From a virus: a stretch of 27,835 bases of DNA. The stretch covers positions 1-27,835 of IMG/VR virus record IMGVR_UViG_3300009605_000104; one strand, 5' to 3'. Below, one piece after another: positions 1 to 27,474 of the stretch (position 1 is the stretch's first letter; the number at the start of each line of letters is the position of its first letter). The position numbers and the translations under genes are program-made. The notes below the pieces were generated by a model. It was not told the origin of the DNA and did no database searches. It saw only the letters and a list, made by a program, of their open reading frames with translations.

Positions 1-890
1 GAGAACTCATCTTCATTAAACACAGGAGAGTATTTTACATCAATACAAGTTACCTTCAGCTTATCGTAGGGGATGGGATGATGATCAGCTTCTACCATCA
101 CTCTCAAGAAAGTAAAATAATTAGGATCATTAATAATCTCTAAGTTGTCTTCTACATCTTTGGCAGTATAAACCAAATGACGAGGCCCACATATAGGTTG
201 TTTATATTCTACATCCCCCTCATCATCTAAGATAGCATAAAAATTATCTTTGAATGCTTCCCCATAGTTGGTAGTATAGGGAGTCCCCAAACAAACTACT
301 CTGCTATGAGACTTTGGTAGTCCTCCTTGTCCCTCACGAAAACGGTGAATATGCCCCAAATAAGTAGTAGCATTGAAGTTAGAAAGAGAGATGCCAAAGT
401 CAGCGTCCCCAGCGGAATTAAGACAGCCAGCATAACCAAAGTGACCGAATACCGTATAGCCCTCAGGGACCATTTCCAAAGCGTTGATAATAGTTTCTTC
501 ATTTTCATAATGCGGGATAAAAACCCGCTTCCTTCTGTGATCAATGTGAGTGTGTGTTATAACCTTTGTAAGGTTTGATGGTCTTTCAAATAAACTAAGA
601 GCAGTAACCCCATCATCAGCTTTGGTTTCACTGTCATGATTACCTCGTAATATTGTGATAGGGGTCATGTGTCCAGGGTATGTGAGGTCTCCAGGCATCC
701 CTGCAATCAAGTCTCTAAAGGCCAGTAGTTCACTGGGAGAAGGCTTACGATACATAAACACATCCCCCATAATAATAACCTCATCAGGTCCTTCCTTATT
801 AAAGATATCTAAAACACAACCAACCTGGGCATCCAGGAGCCCTGGTATCCTGGAGTTAAGATGCAAATCTGTTACTAAGAGGGTTCGCAT
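1..890 (-). CDS. SbcD/Mre11/T4 gp47-like metallophosphoesterase (partial, C-terminus beyond window)
   Basis: This reading frame starts at ATG 890 and stays open to the left edge, giving about 296 residues without a stop, so the gene is cut by the window. It carries the calcineurin-like phosphoesterase motifs in order: D8-x-H10 (TDLHLN), G42-D43, G83-N-H-D86, G149-H150 and G179-H-I-H182, all expected metal ligands. In the T4 family such a protein (gp47, SbcD/Mre11 type) works with an SMC-like ATPase partner (gp46) in DNA end processing and recombination. T4 gp47 is about 340 residues, so roughly the last 40 may be missing. A Shine-Dalgarno TAGGGAG (905-899) lies 8 bases before the start, inside the end of the polymerase gene, which it overlaps by 16 bases. 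The partner gene, if present, would lie left of the window. The fold is secure; the gp47 assignment rests on gene context. Confidence 0.82.
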   Translation of the reverse strand, partial: MRTLLVTDLHLNSRIPGLLDAQVGCVLDIFNKEGPDEVIIMGDVFMYRKPSPSELLAFRDLIAGMPGDLTYPGHMTPITILRGNHDSETKADDGVTALSLFERPSNLTKVITHTHIDHRRKRVFIPHYENEETIINALEMVPEGYTVFGHFGYAGCLNSAGDADFGISLSNFNATTYLGHIHRFREGQGGLPKSHSRVVCLGTPYTTNYGEAFKDNFYAILDDEGDVEYKQPICGPRHLVYTAKDVEDNLEIINDPNYFTFLRVMVEADHHPIPYDKLKVTCIDVKYSPVFNEDEF

Positions 891-1999
891 GTCATATACT
901 CCCTAATTTCTTGAATGTTCTGTGGTTTACCATCTTTAAAGTCTACCTCCACCCCATCTCCAAAAGAGAAGCCTACCTCAGCATCAATCTTAAAGGGTAC
1001 GTCAAAGTATATATTAAACGTCTCCTTAATAAGAGGATAATTTACAAGCTCATCGTAAACAATTTCCAAACACCTTGAGATGTTATTCTTATGGCAAATT
1101 AATTCAATACTATCGTGAACCGTAGCCACAGGATACGCTTTTACCTTCTCCTTTCTGAGGCGTCTGTGTGCCCCCAGGAGGCCACACAAAAGTATATCGG
1201 ATGCCGTGGACTGTATAGTAAAATTAAGCCCCTGACGGGCAGCACGGCTCACTACAGAGTAATCCTTGGAGGTAATGTCAGGTAGATTCCTACGTCTTCC
1301 GAAAATCGTGTAGGCATATTCATTTTTCTTGATAAAATTCTCTACAAAAGACATGTATTCGAAGATAGCGGGGTAAACATTCTTGTAATTACCAATAATA
1401 TTCTTAGCCCTACCAATAGAAATTCCCGTGGTTTCAGACAGGTTAAAAGGGCCTCCCCCATAAGCAATAAGGAACGACACAGCTTTAGCTATCTGTCTCT
1501 CCTCCTTAGTAACCTGAGGTTTATTGAACAGCATACGCGCAGTGTAAGTATGAAGGTCTTCTCCCTTTTGAAAAGCAGTCTGCATATTACCGTCCTTAGC
1601 GATGTGGGCCAAGACTCTAAGCTCCATAGACGCATAATCCACTGTAATAAAACAGTGATCTTTAGGACAGTTAAAGAGGCTCCGAATGTTATTCTCTTTG
1701 TCGCGGGGCAGAGTATGGAATGATACTCCCATGGGCTCACTAGCTACATAAGCCGCACAAGATAACCTACCAGTAGAAGTACCATCAAATCGGTAGTCAA
1801 CGAAAACTTTAGGAACCTTATTATATGCTATAGCTTTCTTGGTTCCCTCAATATAAGTCTTGGTTAGCTTTTGAGACTTGCGAAGATCTAGAAGTCCCTT
1901 GATAAACTTTCGAGAATTAGTTAGCTCTTCAGTACTTTTATTCCCAAGGACAGCTTGGCTAATTCTCTTGCCTTCATCTCTATGACTCCACTTACCCAC
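875..1999 (-). CDS. DNA polymerase family A, palm-fingers piece (third piece of split polymerase)
   Basis: This is the catalytic C-terminal part of a PolA-type DNA polymerase, 374 residues. Visible motifs are TSTGRLS (74-80), motif A DYASMELR with catalytic D121, the O-helix with R168, K172, F176 and Y180 followed by G181, and motif C VHDS with catalytic D297. F176 occupies the E. coli F762 position (Phe type). The usual Glu after the motif C Asp is Ser298. The protein lacks the exonuclease domain and thumb, which the two preceding genes supply. The start is GTG at 1999; a TAA in the same frame at 2008-2006 rules out a longer version. GAGGAA (2015-2010) lies 10 bases upstream. The start overlaps the end of the middle piece by 8 bases. 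It probably acts as replicative polymerase together with those two proteins. Confidence 0.93.
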   Translation of the reverse strand: MGKWSHRDEGKRISQAVLGNKSTEELTNSRKFIKGLLDLRKSQKLTKTYIEGTKKAIAYNKVPKVFVDYRFDGTSTGRLSCAAYVASEPMGVSFHTLPRDKENNIRSLFNCPKDHCFITVDYASMELRVLAHIAKDGNMQTAFQKGEDLHTYTARMLFNKPQVTKEERQIAKAVSFLIAYGGGPFNLSETTGISIGRAKNIIGNYKNVYPAIFEYMSFVENFIKKNEYAYTIFGRRRNLPDITSKDYSVVSRAARQGLNFTIQSTASDILLCGLLGAHRRLRKEKVKAYPVATVHDSIELICHKNNISRCLEIVYDELVNYPLIKETFNIYFDVPFKIDAEVGFSFGDGVEVDFKDGKPQNIQEIREYMTCEPS

Positions 2000-2471
2000 G
2001 TTTATTTAATTCCTCTTCAATCTGATTTAACAGTAGCTTTAAAGTGGGGGCAGACACCGAAGGTGACCCCTTCCCCGTACGATCAGGAGGGTACATTTCA
2101 AATGCTCCCTCACGAGTATACAGTATCTCAATCAAGTCATTATTAGAGGATAGATTATCAGAAGTTTCCACTTCTTTAAAATTATATAGAAGGTCTTCCT
2201 CCTCTATGTTCGCCACTGAGAGTTGCCGCCCTACCTCCTTGAGTTTAGTTTCATCAACACTCATCCCTTCGTGCTCCATCTCCGAAAAGGTAGACAACGA
2301 CGGCATGATAAGATTGGAAACTATATTTTCCATGCCTAACTCTTTGATCTTATCCTCGATAAGATTGAATAGCTTTAAGGTAAAGTAGGAGTCGGCTGCA
2401 TTACCCTCGCAGCAATCCGACAGAGGCATGTTAGCCCAGTCAAAGGTTCTAGGGTTAGAAATTGTTAGCAT
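1992..2471 (-). CDS. DNA polymerase family A, Exo III and thumb piece (second piece of split polymerase)
   Basis: This 159-residue protein matches the middle of PolA. The segment GNAADSYFTLKLF near residues 23-35 corresponds to the Exo III motif of the 3'-5' proofreading domain, with its Asp retained but Gly where Tyr is usual. The thumb follows, with GMSVDETKL, NLSSNNDLIEILY (compare NLNSPKQLQEIL in cellular enzymes) and SAPTLKLLL. It has no polymerase active site and ends just before the palm region. The start ATG (2471) overlaps the stop of the upstream piece in the arrangement TAATG, and GGAG (2483-2480) sits 8 bases before it, so it looks properly translated and coupled. Homology runs up to both junctions. 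Its frame differs from the flanking pieces, which share one frame with each other. A standalone role is unlikely; it probably assembles with the other two pieces. Confidence 0.82.
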   Translation of the reverse strand: MLTISNPRTFDWANMPLSDCCEGNAADSYFTLKLFNLIEDKIKELGMENIVSNLIMPSLSTFSEMEHEGMSVDETKLKEVGRQLSVANIEEEDLLYNFKEVETSDNLSSNNDLIEILYTREGAFEMYPPDRTGKGSPSVSAPTLKLLLNQIEEELNKRG

Positions 2472-3499
2472 TAGAGGTTCTCCAACTCGTCCGCAAAGTA
2501 TAACTTAACCAAATCCATCAGGCTCTTAGGAGCAGTCTCATTGATAAAGTGGTGCATGATCTTCGTATCCCACACATTCTTAGGGCGAATTCCATAACTT
2601 AGTAGAAACTTAAGATCAAACTTAGCATTATGAAACACCTTCTTATTCCTAGGATTGCGTAGGATACGACGAAGAAGGGTCCACGCCCTGGCGGGATCAT
2701 TAGTTCCAATTCCTTTTCTAAAGGGGCTGTCCTTATGGTCTAGAGGAATAACATAAGTCTCCTTAGCTGTTGCCAAAGCAATAGTCTGGATCTTATCAGT
2801 TAGGAAATTAAGCCCTGTAGTTTCAATGTCCACAGCTATAGTATCACGGGTGCCTTGTAGCTTCCTAGCTATATCTTCTACCTCTTCGATCTCTGTCGCC
2901 ACCTTGTAAGTGAAGGTTGAGGTGGTCTTTTTGCCAAGTATATATTTTTCATAGGCATTCTTGATATCCGTTTCGAAGAGGTAGGCATGACGCGGTTCTT
3001 TAAGTACGGAATAGGGGTGATAGATCGGTACCACGACACAGCTAAAGCCAGAACTAGTTGTAAATTCATAAGAACTCCCTCTCTTGTTAGTAATGCCGCT
3101 CTTCCTAATCAGCATCTTCATTGCTAAATTTCCACACACATAAATAAGGCGCGGCTTAACCTGCTCTATGGTAGCATCGAGATGTTCTCGACACAGTTTC
3201 ATATTCCCTGGTGTCATGTCTGCTTCTTTAACCGAAGGACACTTAACCGCAGCAGAAAACTGAGCTTTCCCTGGGTATAACCTTTCTATAAGTCCTAACT
3301 CTTTCTTAGAAAAGGCATCTAGCTTTCCATTTCTATGCTTAAAGGAATCAGAAAGGAAAAGAACGGGACCAGAGACTAACTTTTTATAATCTAAGTAAGC
3401 ATACTTGGGTTTACTTTGAGAAAGAATAGTACACCCCTCACATATAGGATTACCACAGTTAGGTTTAAGACCTGAGTAAATGTTTTCTAGCTCTGACAT
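2471..3499 (-). CDS. UDG-like Fe-S-type domain fused to 3'-5' exonuclease N-half (first piece of split polymerase)
   Basis: This is a two-domain protein of 342 residues. Residues about 1-190 resemble the uracil-DNA glycosylase superfamily: cysteines C20-x2-C23, C87 and C103 are spaced like the 4Fe-4S ligands of family 4 enzymes, KPRLIYVCGNLA fits the central strand, and YHPYSVL (160-166) fits the His-Pro motif. The usual catalytic GEAPG segment is replaced by FLSDSF (48-53), so glycosylase activity is doubtful. Residues about 195-342 are the DnaQ-like proofreading domain with Exo I AVDIETTGL (D224, E226) and Exo II HNAKFD (N291, D295). Exo III lies on the next gene. As I recall, UDG-like N-terminal domains occur on PolA of SPO1-type phages. 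The start lies 16 bases from the divergent sigma gene, and I see no well-spaced ribosome site. The domain may serve DNA binding or subunit contact (inference). Confidence 0.82.
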   Translation of the reverse strand: MSELENIYSGLKPNCGNPICEGCTILSQSKPKYAYLDYKKLVSGPVLFLSDSFKHRNGKLDAFSKKELGLIERLYPGKAQFSAAVKCPSVKEADMTPGNMKLCREHLDATIEQVKPRLIYVCGNLAMKMLIRKSGITNKRGSSYEFTTSSGFSCVVVPIYHPYSVLKEPRHAYLFETDIKNAYEKYILGKKTTSTFTYKVATEIEEVEDIARKLQGTRDTIAVDIETTGLNFLTDKIQTIALATAKETYVIPLDHKDSPFRKGIGTNDPARAWTLLRRILRNPRNKKVFHNAKFDLKFLLSYGIRPKNVWDTKIMHHFINETAPKSLMDLVKLYFADELENL

Positions 3500-3872: not shown

Positions 3873-4165
3873 ACCTTAGATAAGTAATCCTCAGACTCCA
3901 TAGCACCTCTCTTAAGCTGGATAAGGTGAGGAAGTTTAGAGGTGTTAAAGATGACAAACGCATGAGGCATCTTGAAGCTGTCAACTATGTAAAGAGGCTT
4001 ACCTTTATCTCCCCATAAATTTCTACGAATTTCTTTAACAAGCTTCTCGGACTGATCATCCCACAAAGAAACAAATAAAATTCCTATATCATTCTTAGTT
4101 TTTCTCTGTCTCCGTAGAACTTTATTAAGTTCGTTTTCTGTCTTCAGAAATATAGCAGAATACAT
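3851..4165 (-). CDS. Hypothetical protein, possible thioredoxin-like fold without CxxC
   Basis: This 104-residue protein is not recognised with certainty. A hydrophobic strand IGILFVSLW (about 27-35) leads into a helix (SEKLVKEIRRNL), followed by strand PLYIVDSF, then MPHAFVIFNTSKLPHLIQLKRG and a C-terminal helix. That order, with Pro before a strand-turn-strand ending in KRG, resembles the second half of a thioredoxin fold with its cis-proline. No cysteine is present, so it could not be a redox enzyme. Its ATG overlaps the stop of the upstream 117-residue gene (TAATG), so the two are co-translated. Its end overlaps the convergent sigma gene by 22 bases. Placement beside the sigma factor could suggest an accessory role in late transcription, but this is only contextual. 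The coding call is firm, the fold guess weak. Confidence 0.6.
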   Translation of the reverse strand: MYSAIFLKTENELNKVLRRQRKTKNDIGILFVSLWDDQSEKLVKEIRRNLWGDKGKPLYIVDSFKMPHAFVIFNTSKLPHLIQLKRGAMESEDYLSKVYEELGL

Positions 4166-4518
4166 TATTCTACGAAATCCACAGCACCACTAGCGGTAGC
4201 TTCATCCACACCAGTCAATTTACCTGAAGTATCAAAAGTAAATCCTGAAGCTTCATACTCTTCACGGTTAGCTTCCATGTGTTCTACTAAATTATTAGTA
4301 AGCTGCTCTTCTAACGCACGCACCCCATTGAAAAAGATCGAGCGAACAAATTCATCCATCTGTACATTATCAGGCTTCACATTATTCGAAAAATTCTTAA
4401 AGGCTTCTGATTCTTCTTTATTTAATTTAAGTTGAAACTTCATTCTATTTTTACTCCGATACTCAATTTTAACTTTCCAACCGTCAGGCTTGAAAGTAAA
4501 CTTTATTTTTTCTGACAT
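4165..4518 (-). CDS. Hypothetical protein, possible ribbon-helix-helix
   Basis: This 117-residue protein has no recognised family. A short strand (KFQLKLN, about 27-33) is followed by helix EESEAFKNFSNNV and then helix QMDEFVRSIFFNGVRALEEQL, the order seen in small ribbon-helix-helix DNA-binding proteins. An acidic, Ser/Thr/Gly-rich tail ends in VDFVE. The N-terminal 30 residues are basic. It is the first gene of a two-gene unit with the 104-residue protein, joined by TAATG, and starts divergently from the nuclease gene at 4556 with 37 bases between them. A copy of TATAATAGG ends 10 bases before its start, and only a weak AGG ribosome site is visible. DNA binding is a low-confidence inference from predicted secondary structure. 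Confidence 0.6.
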   Translation of the reverse strand: MSEKIKFTFKPDGWKVKIEYRSKNRMKFQLKLNKEESEAFKNFSNNVKPDNVQMDEFVRSIFFNGVRALEEQLTNNLVEHMEANREEYEASGFTFDTSGKLTGVDEATASGAVDFVE

Positions 4519-4555: not shown

Positions 4556-5071
4556 ATGGACGATAATTACGATATAAAAAAACTTAGAACTAAACCCAAG
4601 AGAAAGAACAGCCGCGCTAAAGGGAATGCCTTTGAACGACAGATCGCCAAGACACTCAATGATAGATTCAAGACCACAGAATTTTCAAGAAGTCCTGGAT
4701 CAGGTGCTTTCGCTACCACCCACACCCTACCAGAACACTTAAAAATTCATGGGGATATAATAACCCCAGAGAACTTTAAATTCTGTATTGAATGCAAAAA
4801 AGGATACAATAATTTAAACTTCTATTGTTTATTTAATTATAGATCTGAGTTTTGGGAATTTATAACTCAATGTGAAAAAGATTCTGGCAAATGTAACAAA
4901 TTGCCTTTATTAATATTTAAGCAAGATAGACAGTCAGCATTAGCTATTATACCTGGAGAGATTGAGTTACCTGAAGAACTTACACACATAAACATACACA
5001 AGAATAAAACTTATAAAGTATATATTTTTGAGGAATTAATTAAGTGTTGGGACTCTATGTGGTTTGATTAA
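4556..5071 (+). CDS. PD-(D/E)XK-type nuclease, possibly a Holliday-junction-resolvase-like enzyme
   Basis: This 171-residue protein has the layout of a small restriction-like nuclease. KGNAFERQIAKTL (about 22-34) supplies the N-terminal Glu helix. FSRSPGSGAF follows, then HGDII with the metal-binding Asp, then FCIECKKG with the E-x-K pair. This order (E, GD, ExK) is that of Hjc-like resolvases and related phage endonucleases. In a phage with T4-type replication it could resolve branched DNA before packaging, but the substrate cannot be read from sequence. AAAGGAA (4542-4548) gives a ribosome site 7 bases before the ATG. It is one of only two plus-strand genes and converges on the 908-residue gene, overlapping its end by 17 bases. 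Confidence 0.72.
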   Translation: MDDNYDIKKLRTKPKRKNSRAKGNAFERQIAKTLNDRFKTTEFSRSPGSGAFATTHTLPEHLKIHGDIITPENFKFCIECKKGYNNLNFYCLFNYRSEFWEFITQCEKDSGKCNKLPLLIFKQDRQSALAIIPGEIELPEELTHINIHKNKTYKVYIFEELIKCWDSMWFD

Positions 5072-7781
5072 GAAGAATTTCTAGTAGTTTTTGTTGACCT
5101 TTTAAATAGTCTTTAAACAATCCACTACTGTCTTCCCCAGTTTTTGTCTTCTTCTTGACAGGGTCCTTAGGTGATTTTCTTGGGTCTTCAAAACTTTCTG
5201 GGTCAGCAGATTCGGATTTCTTTACAGTGTTGAAAACATTTTTGCTGGTTCCTGATTTTACTTTATATTCTCCTCTCTCCGCGTTGAAAGTAGCTCTAGT
5301 ACGTTGAGTCCTGTCTCCTTTTTCCTTTGGATCTAAGTCTTCATTAATTATACTCACAGTAGTAGTCCACTTACCTCCTCTCTTAGATCTTTTATATTTA
5401 GCGTGTTTTATGTTAGCCCTTTGCTCCGCATTCCTTAGCCCAGACTTCTGTATATCTTCTTCTAAAATTCTTTTGTCATTAAGAGTTTCATTATGTCCCA
5501 TACTAGTAGCCATACTCTGTAGCTTAACGAACCCTAGTCCCCCTCTAATAAGGTATCCGTTCTCGTCAGTATCCCTATCCAGGTGTTTAGTAAATACTGC
5601 GTTCTGAATTTCTCCTTTCATTTTATCTAACTCTTTACAGTTCTTTTGATCTTCTTGGGCTGTTTGATAATCAGCTTGATCAGCAGGATCCATAGGAATA
5701 GGTTCCTTTTTATCCCTAGAAGCTTTGTCCATTTCCTGATACTCTTTCATTCTTTCCATGTTGTTCATTCTAGTCTGGGACAGCTTCATGCAGCCTATAG
5801 CTGATTTTGCTCTGGTCCTCGCTTTTTCCTTATCGGAAGGACCATACTTTTTATCAAACCACTGTCCAACCATTTCTCCTGCCGCATCTGGGACCCCATC
5901 TACCCAGGCCCCAGGCTGTAAAATTTTTAAATACGGATCTATTTCTCTATCCATTTGATTATTAAATTCACACGCTTCTAGAAGAGCCGCTTCCCCTTTT
6001 TTTCTATTAGCGACCCCCTGCTCCTTAGTTTCTTTATCTTCACAAAAACTTCCTAGAAAATCTTCTTTTATGTTATCCATAAAAGTTTTTTCTTTATCAT
6101 CTAATGTTATATTCGCGGCTTGAGTTTGGTAAAACTCCCCTTCGTCACTCCCCTTTGTATCTTCACACAGATGATCCCACAATGCTCTTCTTTTGTCGTG
6201 AGACGTTTCCCCCCATGTGGACCCAGAACCTTCCTCTTTTCCATGAATTTTAATTTCTCTGTCAACTTGGTAACACCACTCATCAGGGTCTCTAATTAAA
6301 TCATTGTCTAATATGTCATCAATACTTCGGGGGGGACATGCCGATTCGTAATACTTTATTTGTTCCTCAGAAAGAAGATTCTCTTTAATTTGATTTCTTA
6401 TTCTCTCTTTTCCTTCGTACCCGTCATCCTTACAATAAATGTCCAACGCATCTACTTTAGCTCCCGTAAGATCACTTCTTCCTGCTTGTCCTTGCCCTGT
6501 TCCTTCTGTTCTTGTAGGAACAGCATCTCCATGAATAGCTCTAGCAAAATCTCCGTTAGCAAAGACCATCATAAATAAAGCTTCCATCGCTACTTTTTGT
6601 TTCTCCGTATCATCGCTGTACCTACCCATCAGCAAATCAAAGTACTCTTCCACTTGATCCTCAGTCATTCCATTACGTTCCATTATCTTGTTTCTAACAT
6701 ATCTTGCCATGGCTACATCAATGGTTTCCTCTTCCTTAATAATAAGCTGATCCTTTCCCGCTGCTATACCAATGAGGAAGGTTTCAACTACTCTTTCTGC
6801 TACTAGTTTTCCTTCCCCTGCGGCTACACGGTCAATTAATTTATCAAAAAATGCATTACATTCCGCTTGATCATCTTTTCTGGTTTTTGTCTCAAAGCCT
6901 TGCTCTAAACATTTTTCAAAGTCAGGCTCCAAAGAATCCATTAGCTCCCCCACCGTTCCCCTATCCGCATCTGGCAACGCTTTACGCACTATTCTTTTGC
7001 CCCCTCTGGCTTTAGCTACCTTCCTACGTTGGACTCTATCTATCTCCCTAGCAGACTCTCTTATCGCCCTCCCCAGAGGAGATTCATCCGAAGTAATCCC
7101 AATAGAATGCCCATTAAATAAAATTACCCCCTCTGGAGTTCTAATAACGTCATTATCTTCTAAAAATTTCGTGATCCTCTCGGCATAATTTCCCTTATTA
7201 GCGTCAACAGGGTTGTTATATATTAATAGAGATAAATTTAAAAACTCAGTAACAATCCTTAGAGTTTCTTCCATATCTACAAGAGGAATATTCTGCAAAA
7301 GAGTTTGGTTAAGTTTAATTTTTTCTAGTTGGTCTTCTAAATTTCCCTCTTCAAAATCTTTCAATCTTTCAATAAATTTTCCTAGATCTGTGGTAGCAGT
7401 TAACAGGGGTTGAGTATCCACTCCTGTATCCACGGGCCCCTTATCAGGGGTAGGCTCCTCTTCTCCTGGAAACATATTTTTCCACATCATATCCTGATTG
7501 GGTCCTTCAACTCTTTGGCCGTTCTCACCTACCAATTCTCCATTTCTTGACCCCAACCTACCCATAACACGTTGGGTACCTTTTTTTAACCACAATTCTA
7601 CATCATTTATTGTTTGTGCCTCTCCTGGTTTGGATGAGGGAGATCCAGTAGCAGTACTTATAACAGTCTGTATTTGGTCATCCGTAGAACCCCCTCCAAC
7701 ATCTTGCTCTTTCAAAGAAAGCTTAAACTTTCTTTTTTTAAGGAGATCGTAGCTTTCTAGTAGTGAGTTGTAGTATTCCAT
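5055..7781 (-). CDS. Large charged protein of unknown function, candidate internal head or ejected protein
   Basis: This 908-residue protein is not recognised. It is hydrophilic and charge-rich, with helix-rich segments, about ten scattered cysteines, low-complexity linkers near residues 28-52 and 95-125, and a basic C-terminal third ending in a probable helix. It lacks transmembrane segments and shows nothing resembling a portal, tape measure or terminase. The N terminus MEYYNSLLESYDLLKK contains L-x-E followed by S at residue 10, reminiscent of the short capsid-targeting leaders that the T4 prohead protease cuts after (L/I)xE. It follows the tail tube gene, the position of the portal gene in T4, but begins 19 bases after a strong terminator hairpin and has no visible Shine-Dalgarno. 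Its end overlaps the convergent nuclease gene by 17 bases. The gene is certain; the internal-protein idea is speculative. Confidence 0.75.
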   Translation of the reverse strand: MEYYNSLLESYDLLKKRKFKLSLKEQDVGGGSTDDQIQTVISTATGSPSSKPGEAQTINDVELWLKKGTQRVMGRLGSRNGELVGENGQRVEGPNQDMMWKNMFPGEEEPTPDKGPVDTGVDTQPLLTATTDLGKFIERLKDFEEGNLEDQLEKIKLNQTLLQNIPLVDMEETLRIVTEFLNLSLLIYNNPVDANKGNYAERITKFLEDNDVIRTPEGVILFNGHSIGITSDESPLGRAIRESAREIDRVQRRKVAKARGGKRIVRKALPDADRGTVGELMDSLEPDFEKCLEQGFETKTRKDDQAECNAFFDKLIDRVAAGEGKLVAERVVETFLIGIAAGKDQLIIKEEETIDVAMARYVRNKIMERNGMTEDQVEEYFDLLMGRYSDDTEKQKVAMEALFMMVFANGDFARAIHGDAVPTRTEGTGQGQAGRSDLTGAKVDALDIYCKDDGYEGKERIRNQIKENLLSEEQIKYYESACPPRSIDDILDNDLIRDPDEWCYQVDREIKIHGKEEGSGSTWGETSHDKRRALWDHLCEDTKGSDEGEFYQTQAANITLDDKEKTFMDNIKEDFLGSFCEDKETKEQGVANRKKGEAALLEACEFNNQMDREIDPYLKILQPGAWVDGVPDAAGEMVGQWFDKKYGPSDKEKARTRAKSAIGCMKLSQTRMNNMERMKEYQEMDKASRDKKEPIPMDPADQADYQTAQEDQKNCKELDKMKGEIQNAVFTKHLDRDTDENGYLIRGGLGFVKLQSMATSMGHNETLNDKRILEEDIQKSGLRNAEQRANIKHAKYKRSKRGGKWTTTVSIINEDLDPKEKGDRTQRTRATFNAERGEYKVKSGTSKNVFNTVKKSESADPESFEDPRKSPKDPVKKKTKTGEDSSGLFKDYLKGQQKLLEILLNQTT

Positions 7782-7800
7782 TGGATGTTATATCATAGAA

Positions 7801-7834
7801 AAAGCCCAGCCCAAAAAAATCCAGGCTGGGCTTT
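7801..7834 (-). terminator. Intrinsic terminator after tail tube gene
   Basis: A perfect 11-bp stem (AAAGCCCAGCC at 7801-7811 and GGCTGGGCTTT at 7824-7834) encloses a 12-base loop. Read on the minus strand it is followed by a run of T (7803-7799), so it ends transcripts of the sheath/tube unit, whose last stop codon is at 7877. The plus-strand read has only CTTTGTT after the stem and is a weaker terminator, though it could limit transcription coming from the nuclease gene. Confidence 0.88.
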
Positions 7835-7876
7835 GTTATATGTTATGTATATTTTATAGTAGAATTATCATTCTTA

Positions 7877-8449
7877 TTAGAGATCTCCATGATTCATGAA
7901 ATCATAAGCGAAGTTTACTTCAATAGTGTGGAATTCATTGGTACCATAGTTAAATTCAGCAGACTTCCAACTCTTAGGCCAGACTCCAATTAAGGTAGTC
8001 TCATACTGCGGAGCTTGGGTGGGACCTAGGTTAAGGATGGTCATTTTTTGAACTTTATTCCCAGACGTAAAAACACCACGCATGGGATCATAAGTAGTCT
8101 GGAACCATTGCCATAAGAGATTGGCTATTTTGCCGTTGTTTGCATAAAAGTTATCAAAAGTTACGGTAACACCATCATTAGAAGCCTTGCCTGGATAGTA
8201 TACTTTATCGTTTACACGATGAGCTTCGATGGCTTCAGAAGAAAACCCTGTAGCTGTAACTTGTTTAGCAGCTAAAACTAACTTCTCTACAGTAGTCTGC
8301 CCAGAAATACTGGTGGGGAGTTCAAAATGAATTTCCCATTGATAGGTCCTTACAGAATCTAGTCCTTGTGAAATCAAGGGCATAGATACTGACTGAGGAG
8401 TTAGAGTACGAGAGAACGTGTTAGTTCCATAATGTGATTTTGTTGCCAT
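7877..8449 (-). CDS. Tail tube protein (T4 gp19-like)
   Basis: This 190-residue protein resembles the T4 gp19 family of contractile-tail tube subunits. Diagnostic features are YQWEIHFELP (about 37-46), which opens the first sheet, AAKQVTATGFSSEAIEAHRVN with KVYYPGKAS (the loop before the inner strands), VTVTFDNFYANNG, the segment LWQWFQTTYDP, and a C-terminal KSAEFNYGTNEFHTIEVNFAYD strand pair. Stacked hexamers form the inner tube through which DNA passes. Length is close to T4 gp19 (163 residues) with a longer N-terminal arm. It follows the sheath gene after 20 bases, with AAGGAA as ribosome site, and is the last gene before a strong terminator. High late expression is expected because many copies are needed. 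Confidence 0.9.
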   Translation of the reverse strand: MATKSHYGTNTFSRTLTPQSVSMPLISQGLDSVRTYQWEIHFELPTSISGQTTVEKLVLAAKQVTATGFSSEAIEAHRVNDKVYYPGKASNDGVTVTFDNFYANNGKIANLLWQWFQTTYDPMRGVFTSGNKVQKMTILNLGPTQAPQYETTLIGVWPKSWKSAEFNYGTNEFHTIEVNFAYDFMNHGDL

Positions 8450-8469: not shown

Positions 8470-10656
8470 TTATGCTATTTGAGCAGATTGATTAGTGAGG
8501 TTTAGTTCGAACACTACCATTTCCGCAGTCTTCGTAGGCTTGATAAGAACCTTACACCACATTTCATTCCTATCAACCCTTACTGGGGTGTTAGTGGTCT
8601 CATCACAGACAACCTTAAACTCTGTGATTCCTCGTCGCATGGAAATATCTGCCAACATCGGCTGAATTAATGTAACAACCCTTTCCCAAGTAATAGGATC
8701 ATTAGGCTCAAATACTAGCCTCTGAGTAGAAGCAAGAATTTGTTTCTTAATATAGATCATCATGCGTCTAACATTAATTCTATCTAAAGCAGTAGGCTGT
8801 CTTTGAGAAGTTCTTTGTCCAAAGATAGCAATACCATTCTGTGGGAAATTAACAATCGGATTCAGGCAGTTACCTCCTGAATACATTGAATCCCTGTCCC
8901 CTTGGTTTAGAATAACTTCAACATCTGTAGGCTTAGTTAAACGTCCTCTTACAAAACCAGCGGGAGCAAACCATGGGTCTGAAACACTATCTGTAAAGGT
9001 AATCTGTCTTGCACCATAAATCTCAGGAGCTAACCAACGATCTTTTCCATCAAAGACCTGGAATACCTTTAACCAAGGCCAGTAAATAGCACCATAAGAA
9101 CTATTTATAGCAGCCGTTCTCTGAGTAGCAAATCCATTACTCCAGTTGATAGCATCCCCTGGGGTACCAATCGCATATGGAGGGGAAAGAAGAGCTAGGA
9201 AATCTGTAGTTGCTTCTGCTTTAGTAATAAGAGCATTTTGTACATTCTGAAGATCTCCTACGCCTGGACCAGGAGCGAGACCTATTGAAATATTAAGCAC
9301 TGGGTCATCCATCGCTTCAATACCAGTCTTCCCACCATCCGATTGTACTGCTCCTATAATTGCTGTAGCAACAGCCGCATCAGTAGTGGGGATACCATTA
9401 GTACCTCCTCCTAAATTGTAAGTACCTTGAACCAACTTGACAAAACGAGGATCAGCAGGACCCGCAGCACCAGTCTGGTCACCAACAATTGTTAATGCTG
9501 TACCTACAAGGCTAGTAAGAGGCTTTTCAAAGGAAGTTATAGCTGTTACTCCTAGAGTATCGTCTAAAGTTCCACCAGCATTAGATCCTGATGCAAAATT
9601 AGCTGTTATATAATTAGAAGTTCTTCCCGCATAAGTAGTTCCAATTACATCTTCCAGGAAAGAAGCAGAGACAGTACCCGCTTTAAAGTCCTCAGCAGCC
9701 ACTCCCAAATCGTTAACTTGGTTATTAGTTGTGTGTCCACCGATAGCCTTTACTTCAAAGCTTACACCACTAGTAGACCCATCTGATTTAGTACCTGCAT
9801 TATACCCTTCCCCTGGCCATAAACTTTTAGCTAGATAGGATACCGAAGTAGTATCCACCGAAGTTCCTGATGCAGTAGTAGAGGAAGCCGCAGTTCCGCT
9901 AGCCCCAACCATATTTAGTGGGGCAATCATATCAAAACCATGCCACGTACTATTACCATCTAGAATTTCTGCTTTAACCTCGATAGTAGCTGCGTCTCCT
10001 GCCGCTAGGCCAACCAAGAAGGATGAAGCATTCAGACTATTGGAATCAGCAAACGCTCCAATCTTATCGGCATCTAATGATCCACCCAATACCTTTTGTA
10101 ATCCTAAGATAGTAGTAGCCCCATTAGAAGAGGATAAACTTAGAGTACTAGGTGGGATAGTATAAACTTTAGCATCAACAGTTTTAGTTCTAGCTTTATC
10201 ATAAGCTGTGATGGTGAATCTCACAGAAGAAGTAGTATCATCTGCACTGCCTATAGCTGACATTCCAATATTAGCGCCCCCTCCCCCAGAATTAGGTGCG
10301 ATAGGAGCATACTGCGTACCACTAATAGAGAAAGCAGGGCACCCACCTATTGTGGTGAGGGCAGAAGCATTAATAGCATCCGATGCACACCTAATGAATC
10401 TCATAGAATCAGTAGTCTCTAAGATTTCAAGAGCCCCCTCCAAGGCTTGACCTTTAATGTCCTCACTTGGCTCTCCAAAAGTATCAATCAGTTGCTGAGG
10501 GCTAGTAATTAAAGTTGCTTTTTGTTCGTTGGTCCCCGCAACAGGGCCTCGGCCAGCAAAGCCTACAATTCCAACAACAGACGAATTAATGGTGACGGGA
10601 TAATCTGAGATGTCTTTCTCAATAACATAGACACCTGGACTTACAAAATTGGGCAT
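8470..10656 (-). CDS. Contractile tail sheath protein (T4 gp18-like)
   Basis: This 728-residue protein belongs to the tail sheath family. The N terminus MPNFVSPGVYVIEKDIS, followed by INSSVVGIVGFAGRGP, is typical of sheath subunits. The C-terminal domain contains INVRRMMIYIKKQI, STQRLVFEPND and TWERVVTLIQPMLADI, and the last strand VFELNLTNQSAQ supplies the inter-subunit handshake. The centre (about 130-480) is Ser/Gly/Thr-rich and variable, as expected for surface domains. It is somewhat longer than T4 gp18 (659 residues). The sheath surrounds the tube and contracts at infection. AGGAG (10668-10664) lies 7 bases before the start. It is followed directly by the tube gene, the universal order in contractile tails. 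Confidence 0.93.
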   Translation of the reverse strand: MPNFVSPGVYVIEKDISDYPVTINSSVVGIVGFAGRGPVAGTNEQKATLITSPQQLIDTFGEPSEDIKGQALEGALEILETTDSMRFIRCASDAINASALTTIGGCPAFSISGTQYAPIAPNSGGGGANIGMSAIGSADDTTSSVRFTITAYDKARTKTVDAKVYTIPPSTLSLSSSNGATTILGLQKVLGGSLDADKIGAFADSNSLNASSFLVGLAAGDAATIEVKAEILDGNSTWHGFDMIAPLNMVGASGTAASSTTASGTSVDTTSVSYLAKSLWPGEGYNAGTKSDGSTSGVSFEVKAIGGHTTNNQVNDLGVAAEDFKAGTVSASFLEDVIGTTYAGRTSNYITANFASGSNAGGTLDDTLGVTAITSFEKPLTSLVGTALTIVGDQTGAAGPADPRFVKLVQGTYNLGGGTNGIPTTDAAVATAIIGAVQSDGGKTGIEAMDDPVLNISIGLAPGPGVGDLQNVQNALITKAEATTDFLALLSPPYAIGTPGDAINWSNGFATQRTAAINSSYGAIYWPWLKVFQVFDGKDRWLAPEIYGARQITFTDSVSDPWFAPAGFVRGRLTKPTDVEVILNQGDRDSMYSGGNCLNPIVNFPQNGIAIFGQRTSQRQPTALDRINVRRMMIYIKKQILASTQRLVFEPNDPITWERVVTLIQPMLADISMRRGITEFKVVCDETTNTPVRVDRNEMWCKVLIKPTKTAEMVVFELNLTNQSAQIA

Positions 10657-14969: not shown

Positions 14970-15617
14970 TTAAGTATTAGACTGAGGCATGAACTTCATA
15001 ACCTCTGGGGTTAGAAGGTCATTTTGTGCTCTAGACAGTATATCTAGCTCATCTACCTCCTTCTTGTCAACATCTTCAGAGATGATGACGGCTTTTTCAG
15101 AAGATTTAAACGGCTGATCTTTAGATTCCTCTAAAATTTCGACTGCCTCTAAAAGAGTAGCCTTGTCTCCTTCAAGTTTATCAACTTTTGTAGTTAGAGC
15201 ATCAACAAGATTATTAGTTCGTTCGTTTTCCTCAAATGATTTTCTGAGTTCGTCCGTAAGAACCTCTACCTCTGCCTCAAACTCCTTCTGCTCTTCAACG
15301 AGATCGGAAACAGCGTTTCCCTCATCGTTTTTATTTATTTCTAGTGCCATAAGAGTCTTCACTGATTCGAAAAGAGATGCATTTCGCATTGTTTCGTCCT
15401 CTTCATGAAGCTCTCTCAAAGCTTGATCTTTTAATTCGTCAATTCTAGAGCGCATAAAACCCCTTACTTTAGATTCTAGTTCTCGGGTTTTGTCTTCCAC
15501 TTGCTCGGAAATGACATTGTTTACCAGCACCGCTATCTCTGAAATAGCTGCTTCCGAAAGACCTTCAGGAAGCAACTCTGCGATAGGCAGTGTCTGCTCA
15601 GTTTTTGATTTTACCAT
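14970..15617 (-). CDS. Prohead core scaffold protein (T4 gp22-like)
   Basis: This protein of 215 residues lies between prohead protease and capsid genes, exactly as T4 gene 22. It begins MVKSKTEQTLPIAELLPEGL and then has long charged helices with heptad character (about 35-75 and 105-165), as expected of a scaffold that fills the prohead and is later degraded. Several (L/I)xE sequences, such as LSE before Ala and LPE before Gly near residues 15-21, are suitable protease sites. A longer version would start at ATG 15659, but that codon has no ribosome site, whereas ATG 15617 has GGAG (15631-15628) 10 bases upstream, and the segment before it looks non-coding. I therefore prefer the shorter start. 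Confidence 0.85.
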   Translation of the reverse strand: MVKSKTEQTLPIAELLPEGLSEAAISEIAVLVNNVISEQVEDKTRELESKVRGFMRSRIDELKDQALRELHEEDETMRNASLFESVKTLMALEINKNDEGNAVSDLVEEQKEFEAEVEVLTDELRKSFEENERTNNLVDALTTKVDKLEGDKATLLEAVEILEESKDQPFKSSEKAVIISEDVDKKEVDELDILSRAQNDLLTPEVMKFMPQSNT

Positions 15618-15627
15618 AGGATGTATA

Positions 15628-15631
15628 CTCC
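15628..15631 (-). promoter_or_regulatory. Ribosome binding site deciding the scaffold start
   Basis: GGAG on the minus strand, 10 bases before ATG 15617. The alternative ATG at 15659 is preceded only by A/T-rich sequence without purine pairing potential, so this site supports the 215-residue product. Confidence 0.65.
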
Positions 15632-15675
15632 AGTTTAAATATTTACAGATGTTATCCATAAAGTGTTAAAAATTT

Positions 15676-16281
15676 TTATTTTTTGCAAAGTTTATTTTCT
15701 AATACCCTTATAAAAATTTTCTCGTTTAGGGCCTTATCGTATGTGGTCCTAATAGTTTTTTCAATAAATTGAGAATTATTGGCTTCATTTACAAGGTCAG
15801 GGAAGGCACCTTTGGTGGAGGGGTCAGCCACAAGATCAAAAGTTACAAGCTTAAAATCATCATTAACCATGGAATACTCCCCCTTCTCCGTCAAAGACCC
15901 CATACCTCTTGAGGAAATACCTAACTTAACTCCACCCTTAATAAGGGCCTGAGCCACTTGCCCACACGGAGTATTAAGAATTTCAGCTTCACCAAGCATA
16001 TCATTGCCAGCCATTTTAAGATGCGTAATAAGATGAGATACATTTCCCAATTTGATAGCATCGTGTGTAGGGTGGTCTAGTTCCCCCATTAAACGTCGCT
16101 CCTTAATAGCCTCATCTAATCTACTCATTTCTCTTACTAAAATTTTCTTTTCATAGATTCTCTTGTTATTATTTGGAGAAGCGGCTCTTTGGAAAATACC
16201 TGCAATCTTCATAGTGCCGTTAGCCTTAGACTCTTCTAGCACCTGTAAGTTTTCAATGATAAATGTATCGGTAATAAACAT
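15676..16281 (-). CDS. Prohead core protease (T4 gp21-like, peptidase S80 type)
   Basis: This 201-residue serine protease matures the prohead by cleaving scaffold, core and capsid proteins. Hallmarks of the family are present: NNNKRIYEK (37-45), GELDHP with the probable catalytic His70, NVSHLI (80-85), LNTPCGQ (102-108), GISSRG (121-126) with the probable nucleophile Ser at 123/124, and FDLVADPSTKGAF near 147-159. Length fits T4 gp21 (212 residues). It precedes scaffold and capsid genes as in T4. AAGGAAC gives the ribosome site. Its own N terminus (FIIENLQVLEES) contains I/LxE sites that could allow self-cleavage. The cleavage specificity expected from the family, after (L/I)xE, fits sites visible in several neighbours. 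Confidence 0.92.
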   Translation of the reverse strand: MFITDTFIIENLQVLEESKANGTMKIAGIFQRAASPNNNKRIYEKKILVREMSRLDEAIKERRLMGELDHPTHDAIKLGNVSHLITHLKMAGNDMLGEAEILNTPCGQVAQALIKGGVKLGISSRGMGSLTEKGEYSMVNDDFKLVTFDLVADPSTKGAFPDLVNEANNSQFIEKTIRTTYDKALNEKIFIRVLENKLCKK

Positions 16282-16283
16282 TT

Positions 16284-16730
16284 TTAAGTTCCTTGCTTTA
16301 CTTTTCTTTTAGAATTTTTAATCTTATCTTCAGCTCCAGGACCGTATAGCTTTTCTAATCTTTTTGATTTAATATGGCCGTGTTTTAAAGAAGTTCTAAT
16401 AGAGTGGGCTTTAATACTAGACCAATCAGAGCTAGGGGTAGAACTTCCAGGAGTAAAGCCTTTAGCTATTCTTCCCTTACTCTTAGAACCCCAATCAGCT
16501 TTAGATATTACATAGACTCTATCTGCTCCTTTGGTCGTAAAAGCTTGACCCACATGCCCTTGTTCCAATGCATGTGCAATAGTAGCAAATACTCTTACCC
16601 TACTTTTTTTAGCTTTAACAGCCCCTTTTTTGGTAGCTCCCTCTTTTGAAGTATACTTCTTTCTACCTTCTTTGGAACCCCTACCTTTCTCGGCTCTGTC
16701 TTCATTTAAAATATCGAACAAGGTCATCAT
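16284..16730 (-). CDS. Basic protein, candidate prohead core or internal protein
   Basis: This 148-residue, Lys/Gly/Ser-rich protein has no recognised family. It starts MMTLFDILNEDRAEKGRGS; LNE followed by Asp at residue 11 would suit the prohead protease, and the N terminus resembles a short capsid-targeting leader. A basic stretch (about 13-45) follows, then a more ordered block VRVFATIAHALEQGHVGQAF and DRVYVISKADWG (about 45-80), and a basic C-terminal tail. Basic proteins in this position could bind packaged DNA. It overlaps the stop of the upstream gene by 4 bases (ATGA) and ends 2 bases before the protease gene. T4 has the core gene 68 here, so an analogous role is plausible but unproven. 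Confidence 0.65.
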   Translation of the reverse strand: MMTLFDILNEDRAEKGRGSKEGRKKYTSKEGATKKGAVKAKKSRVRVFATIAHALEQGHVGQAFTTKGADRVYVISKADWGSKSKGRIAKGFTPGSSTPSSDWSSIKAHSIRTSLKHGHIKSKRLEKLYGPGAEDKIKNSKRKVKQGT

Positions 16731-26826: not shown

Positions 26827-27474
26827 TTAGAAGTTTAATGTCCACTTAAAAACTAGTGAAAAATCACCAGTCTTATATATGTTTGCGAAAGGTCTATATG
26901 CTACTAACTGAGACCTTTTTATAGTTTCTCCTAGAGGGTTCTTCATAAACAACCCAACTTCATTAAGGATAATATCATTACAAGAATTTCTCTCAATCCA
27001 TAATATATAGGTAACAGAATTAAGATCCACTCGTTTAATACTATTATCAGATATTACCCCAAAGAACCATAGAGGATTATTTTTTGAATCAAGTTTAGAT
27101 GCTCCATTAGATTCCATCAACTGGTGCTCTGAGAGAGGTAAGTTGGCAGCACTATTAGTTTGGTAGTCTTTCCATCTTTGTGTGGGCTCAGAGGGATCCG
27201 CTTGATTTTCTTGGGCTAATGCAGAAACTAACGTAGTTTCACTTACCCCATAAGTATCAATAATCGTATCTCCCCCTACCCCTAATTGGAAATACCGAAT
27301 TTGAAAATTAGTTATATCATCGGCCCCAGACCCAGCATAAAGTAACCCAAGTCCTACACCCATTCCAGAGGTTATAGTATTAGGATCACTAAAAACTTGC
27401 TCCTCAGTGCCATCTTCATAGACCTTATAAATTTGTAAGTGTCCTGAAGGATCTAAAAAATCTTTTTGTTTCAT
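26827..27474 (-). CDS. Fibre/baseplate-like protein, paralogue of upstream gene
   Basis: This 215-residue protein has an N-terminal DPSGHLQIYKVYEDG segment, SGMGVGLGLLYAG and FQIRYFQLGVGGD, then a C-terminal block NEVGLFMKNPLG, LVAYRPFANIYKTGDFSLVF and KWTLNF that matches the C-terminal block of the next gene upstream residue for residue in many places. The NEVGLF signature is common in tail fibre and collar-type phage proteins. AGGAAC lies 4 bases before the start. It precedes the giant beta-helix gene by one base and probably contributes to the same tail or baseplate assembly. The name cannot be made more precise from sequence alone. Confidence 0.65.
   Translation of the reverse strand: MKQKDFLDPSGHLQIYKVYEDGTEEQVFSDPNTITSGMGVGLGLLYAGSGADDITNFQIRYFQLGVGGDTIIDTYGVSETTLVSALAQENQADPSEPTQRWKDYQTNSAANLPLSEHQLMESNGASKLDSKNNPLWFFGVISDNSIKRVDLNSVTYILWIERNSCNDIILNEVGLFMKNPLGETIKRSQLVAYRPFANIYKTGDFSLVFKWTLNF

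Follow-up and report, generated by a model that had tools for sequence, protein, structure and literature searches.

A 908-residue protein encoded directly after the tail tube gene of uncultured T4-type phages is probably a late, capsid-targeted internal head protein, from which a short tag would be cut off and whose body, possibly an enzyme, would be ejected with the DNA. It belongs to a protein family, unnamed so far, that occupies the same position in many uncultured T4-type phages. Because the locus is shared by many phages and the N terminus looks like a removable head address tag, virions probably carry the protein and deliver it to the host cell. If packaged, it would rank with the larger single proteins that T4-type phages deliver, combining a short candidate packaging tag (about 25 residues) that carries a predicted cut site with a few invariant residues.

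The gene lies in a virus record of 27.8 kb (27,835 nucleotides, hereafter the window) that is classed as a possible fragment. Its minus strand carries a T4-type late module comprising the head protease (15676-16281, phrog_207, E 1.4e-53), a gene in the scaffold position, the capsid gene, neck genes, sheath stabiliser, sheath and tube. PHROGs names both the sheath (8470-10656) and the tube (7877-8449), bearing out the gene order from which the original prediction had started. The frame that it had placed at 5055-7781 has the correct coordinates; it is open for 908 codons from an ATG on the minus strand, which had gone unstated, and the plus strand there is full of stops. The tube gene, on the same strand, is 95 bases away.

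5055-7781, minus strand: 908-residue ORF, the candidate capsid-targeted protein (family of 112 ORFs; adjoins the tube gene in 107 of 108 loci)

Used as a query, the 908-residue protein found near-identical copies only, at three loci on viral contigs. Relatives were therefore reached via the neighbouring genes, sheath (80 loci retained from 152 relatives) and tube (58 loci), giving loci L002-L134. The family comprises 112 ORFs, 109 collected by iterated profile search and three (L102, L104 and L106) by position. Where at least 300 bases follow the tube gene, which is so at 108 loci, a member comes directly next at 107 of them, within the module of late virion genes; the exception, L083, has a short open frame there that starts with a similar leader. 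A homologous ORF beside the tube at this frequency makes the observation more than chance. Each of the four long records read holds one copy. Apparently intact members range from roughly 690 to 1,297 residues, and two loci have fragmented or shortened family ORFs (L065, 3082-5330; L122, 5165-5428), reflecting either sequencing error or real decay. Fifty-one of the 112 ORFs, several of them cut by contig ends, were aligned, and 42 of these 51 form the core alignment.

Outside this lineage the family appears isolated. The window protein matched nothing among 50,697 isolate phage records, nor did a tblastn search of isolate phages with five family members, including the window's and representing other clades. 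Against Pfam, PHROGs and the PDB the window protein gave no match of value, and Pfam and PHROGs scans of 51 members gave isolated matches only, each in a single member, among them phrog_10171 (E 2.3e-5). Scans with profile consensus sequences were weak and inconsistent (Rotamase at 7e-4, on the helical part; phrog_2022 at 4e-4; phrog_12983 at 1e-3), and phrog_12983, re-checked on 10 records, matched none. The best PDB hit by sequence was a four-helix bundle (E 0.0017) on a helical insertion. Bacterial and archaeal genomes returned 162 pattern matches with no relative among them. A full-text literature search, with papers judged by title and the start of the abstract, gave no description of this protein family. 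A diverse uncultured lineage thus carries a protein that has no relative in the isolate collection searched.

In T4, the portal gene comes after the tube, and this place is what speaks for the 908-residue product being a divergent portal protein. The original prediction had noted the position and seen no portal resemblance. The PF07230 portal profile has no match in the window, an absence that proves little there since the window is a fragment. Full PF07230 portals are found elsewhere in four of 18 relative records searched (E 1e-79 to 6e-87). These four are the longest of the 18 and all of them also hold the family gene, at about 50 to 63 kb from the portal in G001, G002 and G004; in G004 the portal adjoins the large terminase. 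The absence of portal resemblance is accordingly borne out, a divergent portal in the T4 portal position is ruled out for the family, and we leave that reading practically no probability. Naming portals by their place after the tail tube is therefore unsafe in metagenomic T4-type phages.

The gap between the tube and the 908-residue gene holds two elements that bear on expression.

7800-7834, minus strand: terminator-like hairpin with T-tract, between the tube and the 908-residue gene (z -5.84)
7791-7798, minus strand: CTATGATA, candidate late promoter directly ahead of the start codon, a variant form of the CTATAATA box

The 95-base gap (7782-7876) folds at -29 kcal/mol, with a z score of -5.84, round the T-tract hairpin. 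We aligned 56 of 75 distinct gaps from the family, excluding near-duplicates and unusually short gaps, and 10 of the 11 hairpin pairs show pair-preserving double changes. In most of these 56 gaps, CTATAATA or a near variant lies close behind the hairpin, some 2-9 bases ahead of the start codon. Taken alone, the CTATAATA motif has 68 matches with one mismatch over the window, against 53 expected, which is not a clear enrichment. We read the hairpin as terminating the tail operon, and infer that the CTATAATA-like box is a separate, probably late, promoter; if so, the messenger would be nearly leaderless. Elsewhere in the window, TATAATA, often as TATAATAGG, also occurs upstream of 2471-3499, 4165-4518, 8470-10656 and 26827-27474, no more than about 30 bases from their start codons, and is perhaps a promoter or start signal of the lineage.

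The N terminus was compared across the family by reducing the 112 ORFs to 76 distinct sequences and then to 68 clustered N-termini.

7707-7781, minus strand: conserved leader, residues 1-25, a candidate capsid-targeting propeptide (68 clustered N-termini)
7755-7763, minus strand: L7-L8-E9, the site first proposed for the prohead protease (E kept in 44 of 68)
7707-7715, minus strand: L23-K24-E25, the predicted prohead-protease site ([LIVM]xE in 68 of 68)

The leader follows the approximate pattern M-[DNEK]-[YF]-x(2)-x-L-[LM]-x-[SN]-[YF]-x-x-L-[KR]-x-R and is shorter in one clade. L132, L133 and the C-terminal fragment of L065 were dropped from the count for want of an anchor; the first two share an identical short leader, MKLHEA..., which contains LHE. 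In the four long records no ORF other than the family gene gave a meaningful leader score.

[LI]xE is the preferred site of the T4 protease. The window protein begins MEYYNSLLES, with L7-L8-E9-S10 just as the original prediction had read it, and its proposal of a prohead-protease leader is supported for the leader as such, with the site corrected. Position 9 is E in 44 of the 68 leaders, and otherwise D (9), T (6), N (5), K (3) or A (1). All 24 leaders without E9 retain a second site, [LIVM]-x-E, which is the strict [LI]-x-E in 21 of them, and since E9 is replaced in these 24 with the second site kept in every one, the LLE of residues 7-9 is unlikely to be the defining one. The second site is [LI]xE in 64 and [LIVM]xE in all 68. 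When the 18 residues after SY were shuffled 2000 times, [LI]xE was found in a mean of 27.0 leaders (maximum 40) and [LIVM]xE in 29.5 (maximum 42) of the 68, figures that are no true probability because the leader sequences are related. A stronger point is that the pattern is constant although its place and wording move: it appears as LRE, LKE, ISE, INE, LTE, LLE, LHE or IDE, its E falls anywhere from residue 16 to 28, and in the short-leader clade it is shifted up along with the leader. The residue that follows is most often Q (28), A (14) or E (11). LKE at 23-25 is thus favoured, which predicts a mature N terminus at Q26 rather than S10; E9 is also common, which leaves room for two cuts or for none.

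Beyond the leader, [LI]xE is not depleted from the bodies of family members (527 seen against 496 expected, ratio 1.06); the ratios for comparison are 1.07 in sheath, 1.08 in tube, 0.87 in capsid and 1.31 in 123 long-record ORFs of at least 300 residues. A mature protein would therefore need its other sites hidden. Taken together, the sequences support an N terminus with the behaviour of a prohead-protease leader, kept throughout the lineage; alternatively, it could serve as a docking helix and stay uncut. Beside the head protease, a basic protein of 148 residues (16284-16730, minus strand) starts with MMTLFDILNE-D, another possible [LI]xE leader, and could be a second internal head protein.

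A late protein that stays outside the virion, for example an enzyme acting at the end of infection whose leader binds a partner in the cell, would agree with the terminator and promoter-like box that set the gene apart from the tail operon, and with the replication genes that lie beyond it. We regard this as very unlikely, as each of the 68 leaders has a site matching the one in the capsid proteins: in the capsid proteins of the same viruses, [LIVM]xE stands ahead of G[TAV]FQKF in 28 of 28 distinct sequences.

The remainder of the protein comprises a linker, a conserved core and a conserved C-terminal helix.

7422-7706, minus strand: predicted disordered linker, residues 26-120 (pLDDT below 50 for residues 16-120)
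6162-6971, minus strand: most conserved core, residues 271-540 (invariants in 51 of 51 aligned members; secondary structure)
6945-6947, 6450-6452 and 6249-6251, minus strand: core invariants E279, D444 and K511, respectively, with G440 also invariant
5058-5117, minus strand: conserved C-terminal helix, FLxGQxxLLExLLxQTT, in the last 20 residues

The description of the protein as hydrophilic and charge-rich is correct, with D, E, K and R making up 34.4% of it and the highest 19-residue Kyte-Doolittle window at 1.08. The proposed likeness in composition to internal head or ejected proteins is by itself a weak argument and gives way to the family and leader evidence. An AlphaFold2 model built on the alignment of 51 relatives has a mean pLDDT of 74 and a pTM of 0.73, with 239 residues at a pLDDT of at least 90. 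In the model, residues 16-120 are disordered, the long middle is helical, and strands lie near 424-527 and 767-855. Mean column identity in the alignment is 13%, and the invariant columns are L7, E279, G440, D444 and K511. E, D and K are kept in all 51 members over variable spacing (109-210 residues from E to D, 37-190 from D to K). These invariants suggest an enzyme rather than filler.

The leader logic applies equally to a head assembly factor, a core or scaffold protein that would enter the prohead by the same leader and be degraded or expelled before the DNA enters. In T4, gp21 cuts core proteins to pieces (PMC9958956), and the body of the window protein has 12 further [LI]xE sites. Against this, the scaffold position is already filled by a separate ORF (14970-15659) between protease and capsid, and the large, well-predicted fold with its enzyme-like invariant residues is at odds with such a role, which we judge improbable.

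The place after the tube could also indicate a structural tail protein, either a tape measure or a component of the tail end. The tape measure is encoded one or two genes past the tube or sheath in SP-15, LIS04 and immuto, the model of the family protein has long helical stretches, and its length differs among relatives. However, a hydrophobic segment reaching at least 1.6 (Kyte-Doolittle, 19 residues) is present in none of the 51 members, and G001 and G004 carry, within a separate hub cluster, a tape-measure-like protein of 546-594 residues, named by eye and nameless in PHROGs. The Kyte-Doolittle peaks of these tape-measure candidates are 1.75 and, for the 594-residue one, just 1.49, itself below that threshold. 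Furthermore, prohead-protease leaders belong to heads, and invariant E, D and K residues are unexpected for a ruler. We consider a tail role unlikely.

An internal head protein with an enzymatic body remains our preferred reading, and the arrangement of the invariant residues was compared with known active sites. The site of PD-(D/E)xK nucleases consists, in order, of a helical E, a D preceding a strand and a K inside one. The family has the same order: in the model, E279 lies within a helix, D444 immediately ahead of a strand and K511 within a strand. The residue two before K511 is E in 23 of the 51 members, as in these nucleases, and otherwise G (18) or S (10). In contrast to such nucleases, the family has neither a fold match nor a profile match to the PDDEXK_15 protein encoded in the window: Foldseek searches with the whole model and with a 221-residue core model (pLDDT 79) returned nothing at E 0.001 or better, and the core profile compared with the window's own PDDEXK_15 family gave a probability below 1%. 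The VIA-align lists contain no nuclease; their rows cover mainly helical parts, so this is no evidence against one. With the fold search blank and the profile comparison failed, the body is likely an enzyme and 'nuclease' is a guess; a divergent metal-dependent nuclease is the leading one for the delivered part, held tentatively. The fullest version of this proposal is a rather doubtful one, in which the whole uncultured T4-type lineage would, in every member open to view, carry one giant enzyme packaged in the head and delivered with the DNA: a metal-dependent nuclease, new and strongly diverged (E279, D444, K511), expressed from its own terminator-promoter junction and acting on host DNA or defence nucleic acids as soon as infection begins.

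For the capsid-delivered protein as such, the following course would apply. The gene would be transcribed late, from its own promoter; residues 1-25 would recruit the protein to the prohead core; the head protease would cut after LKE-25; the trimmed protein would be packaged among the DNA; and at ejection it would exit through the tail into the host. Packaging, cleavage, ejection and enzymatic activity are what we infer here, the steps after expression from the leader and from precedents. In T4, the head protease removes 65 N-terminal residues from gp23, and gp21 removes short N-terminal peptides from the internal proteins and Alt (PMC9958956). The family resembles T4 IPI-IPIII and gpAlt in its short N-terminal leader, prohead-protease-type site, gp21-type protease and T4-type head (PMC9958956, PMC3012670); unlike IPI, which has 76 residues when mature, the family protein is much larger and single-copy. 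An Alt-type ADP-ribosyltransferase had no Pfam match in the 51 members at E up to 0.1, a search that a remote one would escape.

Large packaged proteins offer further precedents. P1 packages DarB (250 kDa) in its capsid by means of an N-terminal signal, and the first 30 residues of DarB carry a reporter in (PMC9024508); DarB shares large size and a short packaging signal with the family, whereas its methylase and helicase domains are absent from the Pfam matches of the 51 members. The ejection proteins gp47, gp53 and gp54 of the giant phage SPN3US are likewise large head proteins, with N-terminal propeptides in which more than one candidate site can occur (PMC5694885). Their propeptides are about 80-130 residues long, in contrast to about 25 for the family leader, and no homology was found. 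Polyvalent proteins, which are multidomain effectors, are also large, injected and encoded among late virion genes (PMC5512222), but no known polyvalent domain was found in the 51 members by the Pfam and PHROGs scans.

Several other features of the window and its relatives were recorded. A DNA polymerase I-like gene in the window (875-3499, minus strand) is apparently split into ORFs of 342, 159 and 374 residues whose ends touch, and relatives have a 340-residue first piece at the same place. The head protease ORF of G004 (L154, 12651-14420) has 589 residues, whereas that of the window has 201, and shows additional matches, among them phrog_764, a cytidyltransferase, at residues 210-254. In G001, a long run at about 12116-28945 (L142, L143) holds apparent sugar-nucleotide epimerase and glycosyltransferase genes, as judged from N-terminal sequences only.
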